Part shown: piece after piece, positions 424 through 9,605 of the stretch
Position numbering within the stretch: the stretch's first letter is position 1
Layout: each line of letters begins with the position of its first letter
Assembly (NCBI GenBank): GCA_029259875.1
Contig: JAJDEK010000154.1
Location: 1 to 10,342 of the forward strand
Source: Planctomycetaceae bacterium
GTDB taxonomy: Bacteria; Planctomycetota; Planctomycetia; Planctomycetales; Planctomycetaceae
Direction of reading: 5' to 3'
Length of the DNA stretch: 10,342 nucleotides
Position numbers and translations under genes: made by a program
The notes under the pieces: generated by a model
Databases searched by the model: none
What the model was told of the DNA's origin: nothing
The model's input: only the letters and a program-made list of their open reading frames with translations

Positions 424-1173
424 TTGAATCCACAGCATGTACAGCTTCTCGTCAGTATCAGGAATCGAGACGAAATTCTACCTGCGCTGAATGGCGGGTG
501 TGATATTCTCGACCTTAAGGAACCTTCAAATGGTGCTCTGGGAATGGTCAATGAAGAAACACTCCATTCGATATCCGATTACTTTTTCGATCAACCTGTA
601 AAAGTCCCATTAAGTCTAGCCTTGGGTGAACTCGTAGAATGGAAAGAAAAACGTTCTATTCCAATAATTCCTGCAGAGTTTACTTACCTGAAAATGGGAT
701 TATCAGAGACAGCCCAGAAACACAACTGGTACTCAGATTGGGTGAATTTGAAACAGCAGATCGAAGAAAATAACAAAGCAACTTTTCAGTGGATCGCTGT
801 GGCTTACGCAGATTGGAAACAGGCAAACGCAATTCCACCACAGGAAGTTCTCACAGCAGCCATCGAAAGCCAGTGTGCAGGGTTTTTAATTGATACTTTT
901 CTCAAGCAAGGCCAAAGCCTGTTGGACAGTCTGTCTCTCGAAGAGATACAAGAACTCGTTGATCGGGCACAGTCACACAATTTAAAGATCGCTTTGGCCG
1001 GCTCGATTACTTATGAAAACCTTGAGATGCTGTCGGATGTTTCGCCTGACATTATCGGGATTCGAGGTGCCGCTTGTCTTGGGAGCCAGAGAACAAACCA
1101 AGTTCAAAAGCTGGCAGTCAAGGAATTTCGAAAACAACTTGACCGCCAATATACGTTCATGGAATCAGGATGA
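424..1173 (+). CDS. mfnB: (5-formylfuran-3-yl)methyl phosphate synthase (MfnB, former DUF556)
   Basis: MfnB condenses two molecules of glyceraldehyde-3-phosphate into 4-(hydroxymethyl)-2-furancarboxaldehyde phosphate, the first step to the furan ring of methanofuran-type C1 carriers. The 249-residue protein is close to the family length of about 235. Visible signatures are LLVSIRN at the first strand, GGCDILDLKEPSNGALG (residues about 24-40), YLKMGL (88-93), ALAGSI and the C-terminal DIIGIRGAAC. Lys32 in DLKEP and Lys90 in LKMGL sit where the archaeal enzyme has its two catalytic lysines. The TTG start is chosen from the Shine-Dalgarno at 410-416. It follows the deacylase fragment by 21 bases and ends in a 9-base tail-to-tail overlap with the gene on the other strand. 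Planctomycetes are known to hold archaeal-like tetrahydromethanopterin/methanofuran genes for formaldehyde metabolism, which fits; no other gene of that pathway is in the window. Confidence 0.88.
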   Translation: MNPQHVQLLVSIRNRDEILPALNGGCDILDLKEPSNGALGMVNEETLHSISDYFFDQPVKVPLSLALGELVEWKEKRSIPIIPAEFTYLKMGLSETAQKHNWYSDWVNLKQQIEENNKATFQWIAVAYADWKQANAIPPQEVLTAAIESQCAGFLIDTFLKQGQSLLDSLSLEEIQELVDRAQSHNLKIALAGSITYENLEMLSDVSPDIIGIRGAACLGSQRTNQVQKLAVKEFRKQLDRQYTFMESG

Positions 1174-2274
1174 CATGCCGGTTGAAACTGTTTGCTCCTT
1201 AGCATCCTTCAGTGGATTGTAGGGAGCATACTTTTTCAGTTTCAACTTTTCGATCATCGGAATGACGTGGTTAGCTGGGATCGCAAAGGACTTCGTTCTT
1301 CCGGCACGCGCAATATTCAAGCCTACCGCCTGCCCTTTAAGGTCCACAATGACTCCGCCACAATCTTCCGGTCGAAGTACGGCATCGTGCTGAAAGACTT
1401 CTGTAAATCCTGTTTTACGGCGACTCAACGCGCCTCCCATCTTTTTCTGCATTTCCCGTAAGCGATCATAAATCAGCATTTGTGGGTCTGTGAGGATGAC
1501 TTCTGCTGTGAGTTCTTCCTTTTCTCTTAGTACTTTCAAAAGGACACGGTCACCAGGCAAAAATTTGCGAACAAAACTTGAGAGGGCATTCGCATCTTCG
1601 ATCTCGACACCAGCAACATTTAAAATCACATCACCGGCTTTCAGACCTGCTTGCTCGGCTCCACTTTCCCGGAGCACTGATTTCACCAAAGCTCCGCCTT
1701 CGGCGTCACCGATTTGTACTCCCAGAACTCCAGGTGCAGGCTTGACGGTACGTCTTGAAACACTAAGTACGCCCACACTCACAGGTGACATACTTAAACC
1801 AGGCGTTGCCAACCATTGTCCGACTTTGGGATCTGAAGCTGACCGCCACCTGACTGTAGGAAGCTTCTGAGCATCAATCTTAATCAGAGCCAAATCTAGT
1901 TTTCCGTCTACACCGATGATCTCTGCTTCAAAACGTTCGGCGGTTGCCAACTCGCAAGTGACCTTCCCCTGAAGTTGGCTGGCCTTCGTTAAAATCCAAC
2001 CATCTGAGCCGACAATAGCCCCCAGAGAAGCTTCTTTTCCATTTGAACGTACTCGCACCGTCCATGATCGAGGCGTGGAAACCACAGCACGAAAGGCTTT
2101 ACGAATCTGTGAGCCACCCTTCAATTGACTTGGCTGTAATTGATCCCAGGCATAGCCATAAGAAGCAAAGCATCCCATGAAAACCGGAATGATCAAAAGT
2201 ATCACTAAGAATCGACTAGTCGATTCTTTATCTCTATTTTTTTGATCCGGGTTCAAAAGCTTCTCCTTATACAT
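1165..2274 (-). CDS. Degenerate HtrA/trypsin-like protein with a PDZ domain nested inside the protease fold
   Basis: The protein has 369 residues. A basic N-terminus is followed by a hydrophobic stretch at about 22-42 (signal peptide or anchor), so it acts outside the cytoplasm. The N-terminal barrel can be followed through GAIVGSDGWILTKAS (85-99) and GKLDLALIKID (124-134). The second barrel begins at VGQWLATPG and VGVLSVSRR, is interrupted by a PDZ domain (about 181-262, core EQAGLKAGDVIL) and a charged helical linker, then resumes with QHDAVLRPEDCGGVIVDLKG (295-314) and ends FAIPANHV. Compared with HtrA, the catalytic His is Ser99, Asp127 is kept, and the nucleophile Ser is Cys305. It is therefore probably not a serine protease; a scaffold, chaperone or binding role is inference. 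It lies 64 bases downstream of an intact HtrA gene on the same strand, probably as one unit. No strong ribosome binding site is seen; the start is the ATG giving a full signal region. Confidence 0.8.
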   Translation of the reverse strand: MYKEKLLNPDQKNRDKESTSRFLVILLIIPVFMGCFASYGYAWDQLQPSQLKGGSQIRKAFRAVVSTPRSWTVRVRSNGKEASLGAIVGSDGWILTKASQLQGKVTCELATAERFEAEIIGVDGKLDLALIKIDAQKLPTVRWRSASDPKVGQWLATPGLSMSPVSVGVLSVSRRTVKPAPGVLGVQIGDAEGGALVKSVLRESGAEQAGLKAGDVILNVAGVEIEDANALSSFVRKFLPGDRVLLKVLREKEELTAEVILTDPQMLIYDRLREMQKKMGGALSRRKTGFTEVFQHDAVLRPEDCGGVIVDLKGQAVGLNIARAGRTKSFAIPANHVIPMIEKLKLKKYAPYNPLKDAKEQTVSTGMSS

Positions 2275-2338
2275 AATTCTAACTTCGATCTTAAATTCAA
2301 AGCAGAATAAAAGATCTCAGCGTGTCCTGGCATTTAAG

Positions 2339-3418
2339 TTAGTCTCTCGCTGCCAATTGCACTTCGAACGACATTGTTTTCTTATCTCGAATCAACTTAA
2401 TCTGAATGGATTGTCCAGGCTTATAACGTTGAACGACTTCAGCCAGTTGCTCAATCCCCGTAATTCTCTGGTTATTTAATTGAATAATGACATCGTTTTC
2501 TTTTATTCCGGCGATTTGTGCTGGGAATCCTCGAGTGACTCCTACCACTTTGCACCCTTGATCCGTATTGACTCCATTAACTCCCAAAACAGCATTTTGT
2601 CCTAAAGGCTTTGCGCCCCACATCTCTCCGGATACAAGTTTTTCCCAATCGTTCTGAAACGCTGACACAGGAATGTGAAAGTTCCAACTTGTTGAAGGTC
2701 CGATCCGACTGTGAATGCCAATTACCTCTCCGCTCATATTAAAGAGAGGCCCGCCAGAATCTCCGCCGATCAGTGTGCAATCGGTTTGAAGAAGATGCTT
2801 CTTTTGGGAAACGATTCTACCCAAACGCACTACAGGGGGACGTCCTGCCTGATATCCATTTGGGTGTCCGGTGGCGATCACCCAGTCTCCTGGCTCCACT
2901 TTGGAATTATCTCCCATCTTCACCACGGGGAGTTTACTGATCTTGGCTTTATCTTCATCCACGAGCTTGATCAGACCGGCATCCATTCCCCGGTTTAACC
3001 CCATCGTTTTCCCTTTGAGAGTTCGACCATCGTGTAAAATGATAGTCGCATTTTTTTGCGCCAACCCGATTACATGTGCTGCGGTGAGGACGTATCCGGC
3101 TTTGTGATCGATAATGACACCACTTCCCTGAGCATCTCCCACACGAACTGAAACAGTGCTGTAGATAGAGGCTTTCGTGAGAGAAGTAACCTGCTTCTCA
3201 ATCTCTTGCAGATCTTCTAATGAATCAGGGACCGTCTTAAAAAAGACCTCTGAAATCTTTGCCACAGGTACCGGAGAAACTGGTTTTCTGACTTTGACTT
3301 CTTCAGCAGTCACTTGCGAAACCATTAGAACGAGAGCGCACCCCAACACACTACTTAAAATGCGTTTAAGCAATGCATTAGCTGCATCATCCCTGTTCAA
3401 TAAATGGCTTAACTTCAT
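2339..3418 (-). CDS. Secreted HtrA/DegP-type serine protease with one C-terminal PDZ domain
   Basis: The 359-residue protein is a trypsin-like (S1C) protease that would degrade or refold damaged proteins in the periplasm. Residues 1-38 form a signal peptide with likely cleavage after VTA. The catalytic triad is complete: His115 in LTAAHV, Asp146 in GMDAGLIKL and Ser221 in GGDSGGPL, with QTD (211-213) and GEVIGIHSRIG in their usual places. A PDZ domain fills about 276-357 (GFPAQIAGIKENDVIIQLNN). A stretch of about 50 residues between the signal peptide and the protease domain (39-90) is less conserved in type and may be a linker. There is one PDZ domain, as in DegS, but there is a cleavable-looking signal instead of an obvious membrane anchor. 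It is the first gene of a probable two-gene unit with the degenerate PDZ protein downstream, and is divergent from rfbC across 310 bases. A promoter candidate is noted at 3475-3504. Confidence 0.9.
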   Translation of the reverse strand: MKLSHLLNRDDAANALLKRILSSVLGCALVLMVSQVTAEEVKVRKPVSPVPVAKISEVFFKTVPDSLEDLQEIEKQVTSLTKASIYSTVSVRVGDAQGSGVIIDHKAGYVLTAAHVIGLAQKNATIILHDGRTLKGKTMGLNRGMDAGLIKLVDEDKAKISKLPVVKMGDNSKVEPGDWVIATGHPNGYQAGRPPVVRLGRIVSQKKHLLQTDCTLIGGDSGGPLFNMSGEVIGIHSRIGPSTSWNFHIPVSAFQNDWEKLVSGEMWGAKPLGQNAVLGVNGVNTDQGCKVVGVTRGFPAQIAGIKENDVIIQLNNQRITGIEQLAEVVQRYKPGQSIQIKLIRDKKTMSFEVQLAARD

Positions 3419-5341: not shown

Positions 5342-6010
5342 ATGGATAACAGAGAATTCATACCACGGCCCGAACCGAATGTCACCAATCTGATTCTAAT
5401 CAGGCATGGTGCCACGCCACCAAATGAACAACGGCCTTACATTCTGCAGGGTTGTGGCATCAATCCGAGCTTGAGCGAATCAGGGCAAAAACAAGTAATC
5501 GCTCTGTCTGATTTCTTATCCAAGAATAGCGCCATTAATCATGTTTATTGTAGTCCCATGACGCGCGCCAGAGAAACGGCTTTGGCTGTCTGCCAGCCTT
5601 TTGGTCTGGTGCCTCGGGAAATTGCAGAAATCCATGAATGCGATGTGGGTCGATGGGAAGGAAAATCCTGGGATATTATCATGGAGGAATCTCCTGAAGC
5701 ATACCAGGCTTTCATGGACGATCCTGCCGAAAACCAGTACGAGGGAGGAGAATCTTACGGCGATGTCCTTAACCGCTCAGAACCAGCAATGCAGAATCTG
5801 CTAGAGCAACACTTGGGTGAAACCATTGCTGTCATTGCGCATAATGTTGTGAATAGAGTCTATCTGGCAAAGTTGATGGGACTCGAAATCAGAAGAGCGA
5901 AAGAGATCACACAAAACAATACCGGTATTAATATTATCAGACACAAACTAGAAGAAACCAAAGTGGTCACAATGAACGCGATTTTTCATCTAAATGGTAT
6001 TCCACACTAA
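5342..6010 (+). CDS. Histidine phosphatase family protein (phosphoglycerate mutase-like)
   Basis: The 222-residue cytoplasmic protein carries the RHG motif LILIRHGAT (17-25) with the phospho-accepting His22, SPMTRARETA (71-80) with phosphate-binding Arg, Glu99 in IHECDVGRWEG (97-107), and the second catalytic His167 in VIAHNVVNR. Such enzymes dephosphorylate small metabolites; relatives include CobC (alpha-ribazole phosphatase), GpmB-like and broad acid phosphatases, and the substrate here cannot be assigned. An N-terminal extension of about 16 residues precedes the first strand; there is no strong Shine-Dalgarno, so the true start could differ slightly. It begins 33 bases after pdxA on the same strand, suggesting it belongs to the rfbC-pdxA unit and could be a B6-related or housekeeping phosphatase (inference). 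Its TAA overlaps the stop of the opposing gene by 4 bases. Confidence 0.88.
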   Translation: MDNREFIPRPEPNVTNLILIRHGATPPNEQRPYILQGCGINPSLSESGQKQVIALSDFLSKNSAINHVYCSPMTRARETALAVCQPFGLVPREIAEIHECDVGRWEGKSWDIIMEESPEAYQAFMDDPAENQYEGGESYGDVLNRSEPAMQNLLEQHLGETIAVIAHNVVNRVYLAKLMGLEIRRAKEITQNNTGINIIRHKLEETKVVTMNAIFHLNGIPH

Positions 6011-7461
6011 TCTGATTTTAATGCCCGTAAATAATCGCTTAAAATTTCCAGATTTTGGCTAAAGACTTCACTGGAAATAAAACGACTATTGACTGGAAAC
6101 TTTGGCTGTCCCACGAGACGTTGCCCGGTACTGACACTAATCCAACGTGCTTGATCATCCAATGTATTCAGAATTGTTTTGACCTGTGGTAATAATTTAC
6201 GCCTTTTTAAGTGAGAAACCTGCTTCTGTTTACCAGACTTAATCAGATTATAAGCACGTTGAAGCTCCGTTAAATGCGAAGCAATTTTCCAGCCATAATG
6301 CCTTGGTAAGTTCGAATCATCATAAGTCAGGCTGTATTTTTTTCCATTCCTTGTCATATACAGCGGACGATTTGTTTGCAGCGCGTAGTAACGGGCTAAT
6401 TGTCCATTTGGCAATTGCGACTTTTTTAGATAGGCAAGTGCTTTTGGTATCGGTTTCAGATACTTCTTGTCTCCGCTGAAACGATATATTTTCATCAAGG
6501 TTTCGATCGCATCCTGAGATTCTCCTCCGGTCACTGCCGGTGGTTCAAATTTTCGTGCCCATATAGGCTGCATCTCATAATTGTATTGTTGAGCCCAGGC
6601 AGGTTGCGGATCGGGAAGCTGCGCTTGAATTAAAAAGTCTCCCAGTTTCAACACGGCTTGCTGATAACGCTCATCCTGATAGATTTCATAGGCATCTATC
6701 AGGACTGTAGATACATAGCCGGCCAAGCCATCATTCAGTGTATAATAATCCCAATAATTCTTGATACGACCTTCGGTGCGCCAATCATACTTGGGAAAGT
6801 TAGCTGCTTTTGCAGGAATCTTTTCAACTGGACCTGTCCACACTTGTGGAAAAGCTCCCACAGGAAACTGAGCTTCCAACAATGCATCTAAAGCGATCAT
6901 TGCTGCTTTATGGATCTTTTGATTTTGGAAATTGTGTGCTTGATCAACGTGGATTAACAATTGAATTGCCGACTGGGTAATACCATCATCAAGGGTGGAA
7001 TTGTTCTTTCCTCTCCCTTTTCCGTTTCGATAATCAGCGGTCAGTTTACTCTTTGGATTAAATTCAACTGAATTGGTCCAGCCTCCCGATTTCAACTGGC
7101 CATATATCAGAGCTGAAGCAGCATCAGTAGCCGCGTCAAGATAAAATTGATCTCCCGTTGCTTGATATGCACTTAGAAAAGCCAAACCCACTGTGGGTGT
7201 TCCCGGCGGTTGTACCCAAATCTGGCTAGGCCCTGCTTTGCCTTCCCCCCAGCGTTGCTGCAAGTCGGGAGTGTAGTAATAAACATAACCTCCATGCATG
7301 GCAAGTTTAGCACGATAATAGTCGCTCGCCTTACGCATTGTACGAATAACGTTCTCTTGCGTGACTTTCTCAGCCGCGAGTAATGAAGATTCTGTAAACC
7401 CGGTAACCGAAGTCAAAACGTAACATAACAACAAAGTCAAATAAACTTTCTTCTTGTGCAT
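6007..7461 (-). CDS. Secreted pectate-lyase-like protein (PL10/PelA-like alpha/alpha barrel)
   Basis: The start is set at the ATG 7461-7459 because AGAGGAG (7474-7468) sits 6 bases before it and it begins a good signal peptide (MHKKKVYLTLLLCYVL, cleavage near LLAA-EK, about residue 30). An in-frame ATG 54 bases further upstream would add a non-signal-like prefix. The resulting 484-residue protein is exported. Aromatic and Gly-rich repeats of an alpha/alpha toroid are visible: GGYVYYYTPD, PGTPTVGLAFL, SGGWTNSVEF, NNSTLDDGITQSAIQLL, GAFPQVW, YYTLNDG and the family-like PAWAQQYNYEMQPIWARKFEPPA (about 287-309), then LARYYALQTNRPLYMT near the C-terminus. This resembles PelA-type pectate lyases, which cut polygalacturonan by beta-elimination, but I cannot place the catalytic residues. 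It could act on another uronic-acid polysaccharide. It lies directly downstream of the FAD oxidoreductase, probably in one transcript. Confidence 0.72.
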   Translation of the reverse strand: MHKKKVYLTLLLCYVLTSVTGFTESSLLAAEKVTQENVIRTMRKASDYYRAKLAMHGGYVYYYTPDLQQRWGEGKAGPSQIWVQPPGTPTVGLAFLSAYQATGDQFYLDAATDAASALIYGQLKSGGWTNSVEFNPKSKLTADYRNGKGRGKNNSTLDDGITQSAIQLLIHVDQAHNFQNQKIHKAAMIALDALLEAQFPVGAFPQVWTGPVEKIPAKAANFPKYDWRTEGRIKNYWDYYTLNDGLAGYVSTVLIDAYEIYQDERYQQAVLKLGDFLIQAQLPDPQPAWAQQYNYEMQPIWARKFEPPAVTGGESQDAIETLMKIYRFSGDKKYLKPIPKALAYLKKSQLPNGQLARYYALQTNRPLYMTRNGKKYSLTYDDSNLPRHYGWKIASHLTELQRAYNLIKSGKQKQVSHLKRRKLLPQVKTILNTLDDQARWISVSTGQRLVGQPKFPVNSRFISSEVFSQNLEILSDYLRALKSD

Positions 7462-7467
7462 CGCTGA

Positions 7468-7474
7468 CTCCTCT
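7468..7474 (-). promoter_or_regulatory. Ribosome binding site deciding the pectate-lyase-like gene start (AGAGGAG)
   Basis: Read on the minus strand, AGAGGAG is followed by six bases and the ATG at 7461-7459. It is the main reason for rejecting the upstream in-frame ATG at 7515-7513, which lies within the 3' remainder of the preceding gene. Confidence 0.65.
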
Positions 7475-7493
7475 TTCTGAAACTGAATCTCAT

Positions 7494-7685
7494 TTACTTC
7501 GAAACTGGTAGCCACTGAACGGCATCAATAATTACATAACCGTCTGAATCCTCATTCGTCACTTCAACCACGGCTACCTGACCTGGTGCAAAGTCGTACT
7601 CACCTAAAGATATAAAGATGCCATCCAGAGGAGGTCGCTTCTTCTGATTAATGGTGTGAAGTGCTTTACCGTTCGCATGCTTGAG
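7494..7685 (-). pseudogene. Detached C-terminal remainder of the FAD oxidoreductase (in-frame after a TAA)
   Basis: Directly after the TAA at 7688-7686, 63 more codons run in the same frame to a second TAA at 7496-7494. They read LKHANGKALHTINQKKRPPL, then DGIFISLGEYDF, APGQVAVVEVTNEDSDG and YVIIDAVQWLPVSK. This is the expected end of the golvesin/xanthan-lyase-type C-terminal beta domain whose first half closes the preceding open frame; the DGYVIIDAVQWLP ending is the strongest sign. It has no start codon or ribosome binding site of its own at its 5' end. The simplest reading is one nonsense change in a formerly 703-residue protein. Sequencing error or stop readthrough are the alternatives. 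Confidence 0.75.
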
Positions 7686-9605
7686 TTACACTTTGACTTT
7701 AGAACTACGATTGCTATTGGGAGTATAGGCGTAGCGAACTTCATAGCGGCCTGCTTTCGGTACTTTCGTTTCGAAACGAGCGATCGCTTTTCCATCCTGT
7801 GAATTAGATTCATGACTGTAACTTGAACCAATATATTTTTGGGACGACGTACTGGTTTTCCAAGCTCCAGTTAGTTTCGCCTGTGAATCGTCAAGTACAA
7901 TACCTTTCAGCTTCGTAGGATCCACACCATTCCGACCATATTTCACTTCGGAAGATGCTTCTAGAATTTGTCCTTCTTTCAGCAGTTTCTCTTTGAGAAC
8001 AGAGTAAGGAACATCTTGCACATCCAATTTTTGATCAATGGCGATGCCGGCTGCTGTTGCCACCGAATGTCCCAGAATCATAAAAACCGGTTCCATACGA
8101 ATCGAACCAAAGGCAATATGCGAACTGGAAACACAAACAGGCACGAGCAAATTTCTACACTCTCCTTTTTTAGGAACCAGACTGCCATACGCAATTTGAT
8201 AAGGACCATGGGTCGAAACACCGATGTCTCCCTCATTCTGTACATATCCCTCTGGTGTGACATACCGTTGCACATTATGCGAATCCATTGTGTATGATCC
8301 CATCCCTACAGAATCCGGAGTGGGACGTTTTTTCAGCAATTCATTCTCTGTCATCACAAACTGCCCCATCATCCGCCGGGCTTCGCGAATATAGAGTTGA
8401 TGAGGCCAGTTTCCATTGTCGGTGAACTCATCTTTGGCGAGTCCCCATTCGCGCATTTTCTTTTGCACTTCGCTTGGGACACGCGGATCATTGGCAATAA
8501 AATAGAGCCAACCTTTCTGATAGGTTTCGTGCTCTTTGATGATTTCCTTTCTGCGTTTATATGAAGCTTCGGGATAATCGTAATTGTAGCCAATGTTATC
8601 GGTGCTCATCGGACCGTGATTGTTCGTATCCGTTTTATAGTTGGGGATAGGATCAAACTTTGCAAAGGTTTCTCTCCAACCCGCCTGATAAATTCTCAAT
8701 AACAATTCATACTGGCTCGGATCATAGCCTTCCGGCTTGGGAAAAGGGACACGATTCTCAGCATGATTGGTCAAGCACATCCTGAAACAATATGCCTGAA
8801 TCTTATCATCGCCAGCACCATACTTCCCTGGATTCGCGCCACTGATACGGGGCAGCAAACCGCTGGAAGGATCTCCGGAAATATGATAAGGGCTGATTTT
8901 TTGCTTAACGGCTCTGGGACCAAAATGATGCTTGTGATGCAAAACGCCGGTTTGTATTCCGTTCCACTTTTCACCATAGACGCTATTCGCCTCTCGTCCG
9001 ACATGATAGCTGACATCTGCTGCCGCCATGAGATCGCCTTCATACGTCGCGTCGATAAACATCAGGCCAGAGTAAATATTCCCGTTGAGCATCGTTATGG
9101 AAGTAATGTTTGTCCCTAACATTTTCACTCCCTGCTGTCGATCCAGCCATTCATTGCGATGCACGGGAATGTTGTATTCTCGAACAAAGTCTTCAAAGAC
9201 TTGCTCAGCGACATGTGGCTCAAAAATCCACATTGTTCTCTGTTTCCCGTCAATGGCAGGAGTGCCTTGCCCTTTGTCACCGTACGCTTTCCGTTTTTGC
9301 CACTTCCAGGTTTCTGGTGCCTGATAATACTTCCAGATGCGATGATAAAATTCACGCGCCAGTCCACCAATGACAGCTTTATTACCGGTGTCGGTCCAAC
9401 CCAGGCCTCCGCTTGATAATCCACCTAAATGTTGGTCCGGGCAAACAATAACAACTGATTTTCCTAGTCGTTTTGCCTGGACTGCTGCTGTCACAGCGGC
9501 TGAAGTTCCTCCATAGATGACCACATCGTATACCTCTGCCTGGACAGTTTGCATTGAAACTGTCACGAACAGACACAATGTGATAAATTGACGAATCAAA
9601 TTCAT
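7686..9605 (-). CDS. Secreted FAD-dependent oxidoreductase ('xanthan lyase'-like), C-terminal domain cut by a stop
   Basis: The 639-residue product starts with a signal peptide (1-23, cleavage after VQA), then a Rossmann FAD-binding motif DVVIYGGTSAAV (27-38) and HLGGLSSGGLGWTDTGN (59-75). Further FAD-oxidoreductase features are FIDATYEGDLMAAA (about 185-198), the long substrate region with SYTMDSHNVQRY, and the closing NLLVPVCVSSSHIAFGSIRM plus LGHSVATAAGIA. These belong to the FAD_oxidored family common in Planctomycetes, often named xanthan lyase or fumarate-reductase-like; a sugar-oxidising or polysaccharide-related role is inference. From about residue 570 a golvesin-type beta domain begins (GIVLDDSQAKLTGAW, IGSSYSHES, AGRYEVRYAYTPNSNRSSKVKV) but stops at TAA 7688-7686, halfway through. 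The catalytic domain is intact. GGAG (9620-9617) lies 11 bases before the ATG. The pectate-lyase-like gene follows on the same strand. Confidence 0.82.
   Translation of the reverse strand: MNLIRQFITLCLFVTVSMQTVQAEVYDVVIYGGTSAAVTAAVQAKRLGKSVVIVCPDQHLGGLSSGGLGWTDTGNKAVIGGLAREFYHRIWKYYQAPETWKWQKRKAYGDKGQGTPAIDGKQRTMWIFEPHVAEQVFEDFVREYNIPVHRNEWLDRQQGVKMLGTNITSITMLNGNIYSGLMFIDATYEGDLMAAADVSYHVGREANSVYGEKWNGIQTGVLHHKHHFGPRAVKQKISPYHISGDPSSGLLPRISGANPGKYGAGDDKIQAYCFRMCLTNHAENRVPFPKPEGYDPSQYELLLRIYQAGWRETFAKFDPIPNYKTDTNNHGPMSTDNIGYNYDYPEASYKRRKEIIKEHETYQKGWLYFIANDPRVPSEVQKKMREWGLAKDEFTDNGNWPHQLYIREARRMMGQFVMTENELLKKRPTPDSVGMGSYTMDSHNVQRYVTPEGYVQNEGDIGVSTHGPYQIAYGSLVPKKGECRNLLVPVCVSSSHIAFGSIRMEPVFMILGHSVATAAGIAIDQKLDVQDVPYSVLKEKLLKEGQILEASSEVKYGRNGVDPTKLKGIVLDDSQAKLTGAWKTSTSSQKYIGSSYSHESNSQDGKAIARFETKVPKAGRYEVRYAYTPNSNRSSKVKV

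Follow-up and report, generated by a model that had tools for sequence, protein, structure and literature searches.

Why does a planctomycete gene with no visible frame shift carry a stop codon in the middle of its last domain? This question is raised by a DNA stretch of 10,342 bases (hereafter the window), which makes up all of contig 62 of a genome bin. On its minus strand, the window encodes what is probably a secreted, flavin adenine dinucleotide (FAD)-dependent oxidoreductase with a C-terminal Golvesin_C domain, and an in-frame TAA at codon 640 falls inside that domain. A first-pass annotation of this DNA had offered three explanations: a very recent nonsense mutation, a sequencing or assembly error, or a programmed or leaky stop yielding two forms of the protein. 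In the analyses described below, the first two were found to fit all of the findings, while the third was left unsupported. The TAA is present in the consensus sequence and absent from the relatives, and the codons that follow it are intact and constrained. The reading that we favor, with modest confidence, is a nonsense allele of recent origin, affecting a single codon in a Gimesia population and probably a strain variant. All readings that assign a function to the stop are, even taken together, improbable. The genus is named here because a relative of the window protein at 84% identity lies on a Gimesia sp. contig and Gimesia records were among the best protein matches, from which we infer that the bin belongs to Gimesia.

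A single in-frame TAA splits the Golvesin_C domain

When positions 7494-9605 were translated on the minus strand, 639 residues ending in SSKVKV were followed by the TAA, by 63 further residues ending in DGYVIIDAVQWLPVSK, and by a second TAA, for a read-through total of 703 residues. The coordinates, sequence, lengths, and total given by the first-pass annotation were therefore right. The N-terminus of the product is signal-like as judged by eye. In Pfam profile searches, FAD_oxidored (PF12831) scored 378.3 bits (cut-off 27). The two halves of the C-terminal domain were also scored separately against Golvesin_C (PF25275; cut-off 31.6): the half before the stop reached 42.4 bits over profile positions 4-71, and the remainder alone reached 31.2 bits over positions 76-129, just under the cut-off. 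The 63-codon remainder is also 86% identical to the orthologue tail in the nearest genome, G003, with which it has its final 16 residues in common, and only 419 of 20,000 base shuffles of it stayed open. This score, this identity, and this shuffle count show that the remainder did not arise as an open frame by chance. Moreover, the gene could be aligned over its entire length, without gaps, to the loci of the two nearest genomes (L003 and L004), which shows that the frame has not shifted. It was thus confirmed, as first claimed, that the homologous frame simply runs on for 63 codons past the TAA. A separate restart of translation within the remainder was rejected, because it contains no in-frame ATG or TTG and its only internal starts are GTG codons, at its codons 39 and 42. 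The features of the window are listed in Table 1.

Table 1. Positions of the interrupted gene and of neighboring genes in the window.
Feature	Position	Strand	Basis or remark
Full-length frame, FAD_oxidored + Golvesin_C	9605..7494	minus	translation; TAA within at 7686-7688
Frame up to the in-frame stop	7689..9605	minus	FAD_oxidored, residues 27-541; first half of Golvesin_C, residues 572-637
In-frame TAA, codon 640, next base C	7686..7688	minus	sense codon in all orthologues examined
Remainder, 63 sense codons, second half of Golvesin_C	7497..7685	minus	still under purifying selection
Orthologous end of the full-length frame, TAA	7494..7496	minus	translation and orthologue alignment
Pec_lyase-like gene, downstream	6007..7461	minus	start placed by comparison with the homologues L112 and L113; ribosome site by eye
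4-HFC-P synthase family gene (PF04476), TTG start	424-1173	plus	
Two tandem Trypsin_2 + PDZ genes	1165-3418	minus	

Relatives encode a sense codon at position 640

The gene was compared with its counterparts in 16 other genomes of the same genus, and complete loci were obtained from 14. At the codon-640 column, every one of these 14 codon-aligned orthologues carries a sense codon (A in 3, E in 1, K in 5, and T in 5), and each terminates at the alignment column where the full frame of the window ends. When G007 is counted, in which the matches lie on contig C671 in one 167-codon open frame spanning the stop position, 15 of the 16 genomes read through; in the remaining genome, G006 (76% complete), no orthologue was found, only distant matches. 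The remainder is 57-86% identical to the orthologue tails in these 15 genomes, and the Golvesin_C domain is kept by all 15. A protein search with the read-through form found 128 relatives, and all 120 of those listed span 90% or more of residues 555-703; because the entries searched were clustered at 90%, truncated or same-species members would be hidden. Among the 120 listed, the best 22 (690-704 residues long and 80-92% identical) were aligned, and 22 of 22 have a sense residue at the codon-640 column.

The orthologue alignment proposed in the first-pass annotation thus gave the same answer at both the codon and the protein level. It also excluded the case named there as fatal to a split gene, in which all orthologues would end at this position with unrelated sequence after it: the orthologues read through into homologous tails. 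A conserved alternative protein end was rejected as well. The stop is unique to the window genome among those compared.

The stop falls inside a predicted beta-sandwich

The place of the cut in the protein was examined on an AlphaFold2 model of the relative P0003, which is 92% identical to the window protein and aligns with it without gaps (mean predicted local distance difference test score, 80.9; ten-residue block confidences of 91-95 over residues 611-700). In this model, codon 640 lies inside a predicted strand (637-643), and further predicted strands follow the cut at 646-652, 664-672, 677-683, and 695-700. As predicted, then, the stop removes five strands wholly or partly and leaves half of a sandwich. 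The earlier description of this region as a golvesin/xanthan-lyase-type beta domain was borne out by the Pfam scores and by both profile and fold matches to a Paenibacillus xanthan lyase, PXL. In the profile search, the whole domain matched PXL (6f2p) at residues 906-1038 with an E value of 8.8e-24; 6f2p was also the first fold match in the PDB (E value, 2.8e-10; root-mean-square deviation, 1.5 over 137 columns), and the range of that match is taken to be the C-terminal domain. Residues 906-1038 presumably form a module of the xanthan lyase. The likeness to PXL is one of homology across the whole C-terminal domain; the catalytic part, in contrast, is a PL8 lyase in PXL and a FAD oxidoreductase in the window, and the homology does not imply that the Gimesia protein binds xanthan. 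For the FAD part, Foldseek returned matches such as flavocytochrome c3 and SDHA, but their TM-scores were low and they were not used.

The same order of FAD_oxidored and Golvesin_C is found in proteins of Gimesia, whose records name them FAD-dependent oxidoreductase or 'Xanthan lyase'. Unlike those other proteins, the window gene is interrupted at codon 640. No literature was found that ties a FAD-dependent oxidoreductase in Planctomycetes to polysaccharide and xanthan lyase.

How the domain is distributed in the family was surveyed in 109 related frames (loci L003-L111, with near-duplicates possible), a set from which more distant family members beyond L003-L031, and 506 of 586 relatives from another search, were left out. 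In this set, the domain is complete in 56 frames and missing from 52, which stop short of residue 600, while one further frame is cut off by the end of its contig; no frame of the 109 ends mid-domain, between residues 600 and 690. Within the set, the enzyme hence occurs with or without the domain, but never with half of it. The 52 shorter frames (L021, L022, and others) are FAD_oxidored relatives lacking the Golvesin_C end; judged from these sequences, that end seems to have been gained or lost often in the family.

These counts bear on the idea that the stop is an adaptive loss, by which the lineage would be shifting to a domain-less oxidoreductase like its relatives without Golvesin_C. The 52 frames do indicate that the FAD domain can stand alone. 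Domain-less forms, however, extend no further than the point where the domain would begin, and none stops between residues 600 and 690; a cut at 640 is predicted to leave half of a sandwich, and no orthologue among the 15 of the genus has lost the domain. We therefore regard adaptive domain loss as very improbable, the least probable of the explanations weighed here.

If the favored nonsense allele is real, translation would end inside the beta-sandwich of this carbohydrate-binding-like domain. The product would consist of the whole FAD domain and half of a Golvesin_C domain that, as modeled, cannot close without the lost strands, and it might be expected to misfold, to be degraded, or to act without polysaccharide targeting.

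The remainder still evolves as protein

The first-pass annotation had suggested comparing synonymous with nonsynonymous change in the 63 codons, and this was done with the orthologues of the genus. Between the window and L003, the tail has a nonsynonymous divergence (dN) of 0.073 and a synonymous divergence (dS) of 0.635, for a dN/dS of 0.114, as compared with 0.069 for the first half of the domain and 0.030 for the FAD part. Between the window and L004, the respective ratios are 0.128, 0.115, and 0.030. In pairs of intact genes, dN/dS of the tail was 0.232 (L003-L004), 0.120 (L008-L010), and 0.042 (L005-L006); several wider pairs were saturated. With the use of four further sequences of the genus, the amino acid changes in the tail were polarised: two fell on the window branch, five on the sister branch leading to L003, and two were left unassigned. 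No relaxed constraint after the stop was found in either dN/dS or the polarised changes, although 63 codons afford little power and a very young stop would show none. The remainder appears still to evolve as protein.

The time since any loss of constraint was bounded by a Poisson calculation in which half of the pairwise dS of the FAD part (0.788) was assigned to the window branch. Had the tail been neutral along that whole branch, about 57 nonsynonymous changes would be expected, whereas 2 to 4 were counted as observed. The tail can accordingly have been neutral over no more than about 0.11-0.16 of the branch, or about 0.14-0.20 with the tail's own lower dS; this arithmetic takes no account of rate variation and draws on 63 codons. 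The low dN/dS and the few changes on the branch together imply either a young stop or a spurious one.

Constraint on the remainder would also be expected if the TAA were leaky or programmed, such that mainly truncated enzyme was made together with a little full-length, polysaccharide-targeted enzyme. A survey of bacterial in-frame stops (Belinky et al. 2021; PMC7918605) contends that many such stops keep dN/dS below 1 and may lower expression temporarily, which also favors a leaky stop. However, low dN/dS in the remainder argues neither for readthrough nor against it, the same ratio being expected of a young stop or of an error. The TAA occurs in no relative examined, and none of the 109 classified relatives makes a form ending mid-domain. 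TAA is a codon read by both release factors, and it ends four other genes of the window, which also led us to reject its reassignment as a sense codon. No stimulating RNA structure was detected in the 101 nucleotides starting two bases before the stop (z = +1.0; 176 of 200 shuffles at least as stable), with pseudoknots lying outside the method. Programmed readthrough was rejected, the stop being neither conserved nor followed by such structure, and the two-form option of the first-pass annotation thereby lost its footing. We consider a leaky or programmed stop highly improbable. The same low standing is given to a variant in which the TAA has become fixed and is partly read through, so that a leaky ochre codon serves as a short-lived dosage switch in a carbohydrate-active operon. 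If a leaky TAA were nevertheless real, most of the enzyme would be released without its polysaccharide-binding end, with a minority keeping it.

Recent nonsense allele or consensus error

The remaining alternative is an error of the consensus or of the assembly, in which case living cells have a sense codon and make an ordinary enzyme of 703 residues. Several findings would accord with this. The bin is fragmentary (3.59 Mb in 589 contigs, 74.15% complete), every relative aligned has a sense codon at codon 640, and decay of the remainder is no greater than in intact relatives, as expected of a stop that is not real. On the other side, the gene contains no indel, and the manner of assembly has to be considered. 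Bases 1-141 of the window repeat exactly the final 141 of contig 7, which belongs to the same bin, and this is one of three contig pairs with exact 141-base end overlaps, from which we infer a short-read de Bruijn assembly with k=141, a value used by MEGAHIT. Assemblers of this kind drop k-mers seen once, so that single-read errors are normally filtered out, and they merge strain bubbles and variants. A lone read error is thereby made less likely and a strain allele more likely, with neither proven.

To gauge the quality of the bin, 78 of its contigs (G000; the window included), with 522,403 readable bases, were compared with G003; five of the 78 read wholly N, and one other was taken in its first 20,000 bases only. 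The G003 side comprised 61 stretches (1.22 Mb) round the orthologous locus, which is not a random sample. Of 901 G003 open reading frames (ORFs) searched, 262 matched and 74 were kept at an identity of at least 78%; those with a best match below 78% were dropped. Nine of the kept pairs lie in the window and 65 elsewhere (23,060 codons). No internal interruption was seen in the 65 pairs outside the window; two pairs had stops at residue 586 of 596 and residue 470 of 471, which we read as natural end differences. No frame shift was flagged in any of the 74. Among the nine non-overlapping G003 ORFs of at least 100 amino acids paired within the window, the gene under study was the only one internally interrupted. 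In the reverse survey, 70 ORFs of the bin were searched against G003 and three stops appeared, at query residues 13, 19, and 30; these were read as over-extended starts, the first being that of the Pec_lyase-like ORF of the window. Likewise, none of 48 sulfatase-domain matches in the bin contained an internal stop. The bin thus looks otherwise clean by sequence comparison, and the clean pairs and stop-free sulfatase matches led us to reject general low quality as the cause. Along its whole length, the window contig is collinear with G003 and G002, the two nearest genomes, and shares 85% DNA identity with them. With the base error rate not appearing high, an error at codon 640 is judged unlikely, though by no means negligible. 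How weight was divided between allele and error is a matter of judgment, not of computation.

Four points weigh against the nonsense allele. The stop is known from one consensus sequence alone. The quality survey was small, its G003 part being one 1.2-Mb stretch, and does not separate a rare error from a rare mutation. Same-species copies may be hidden inside the 90% protein clusters. Finally, the two tail changes on the window branch, at residues 657 and 675, replace residues by others of different character, which hints weakly at relaxation or error, though the R at residue 657 is also present in P0020.

A recent nonsense allele would have ample precedent. According to the survey by Belinky et al. 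(2021; PMC7918605), in-frame stops in bacterial genes are widespread and mostly about as short-lived as single-nucleotide polymorphisms, and carbohydrate transport and metabolism is among the gene categories in which they are most frequent. Like the nonsense polymorphisms and young pseudogenes described there, the window gene has a single in-frame stop, no frame shift, and flanks with dN/dS below 1. Unlike them, it is found in one bin only and falls short of that study's guard of at least two species. The window stop fits this already documented class, with an ordinary cause. On the favored reading, the base would be real and would be carried as one strain's allele, with consequences for both product and operon. 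A polysaccharide-binding-like end would then have been lost at the level of strains in Gimesia, as a minor instance of transient bacterial nonsense alleles. The case is above all a caution for annotation: gene callers will record a protein of 639 residues and drop the remainder, and a single base in the consensus of a bin is enough to give a conserved enzyme a truncated look.

Neighboring genes

Downstream of the interrupted gene lies the Pec_lyase-like gene. Its longest ORF (6007-7515, minus strand) begins at a GTG at 7515, inside the tail of the FAD gene; homology to the nearest genomes places the start instead at an ATG at 7461. This ATG is 32 nucleotides past the full-length stop; in G003 and G002, the distance to the aligned start is 37 nucleotides. 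Termination at codon 640 leaves 224 nucleotides untranslated ahead of the Pec_lyase-like gene, which makes polarity plausible, and the gene may suffer from it if the nonsense allele is real. At the other end of the window, an Amidohydro_3 gene is cut off at position 1, and its first part is carried on contig 7. The end of the 4-HFC-P synthase family gene overlaps the convergent Trypsin_2/PDZ gene (1165-2274, minus strand) by 9 bases. The latter, the downstream member of the tandem pair, matches Trypsin_2 over positions 3-88 of 144 only, and its product is perhaps a degenerate protease.
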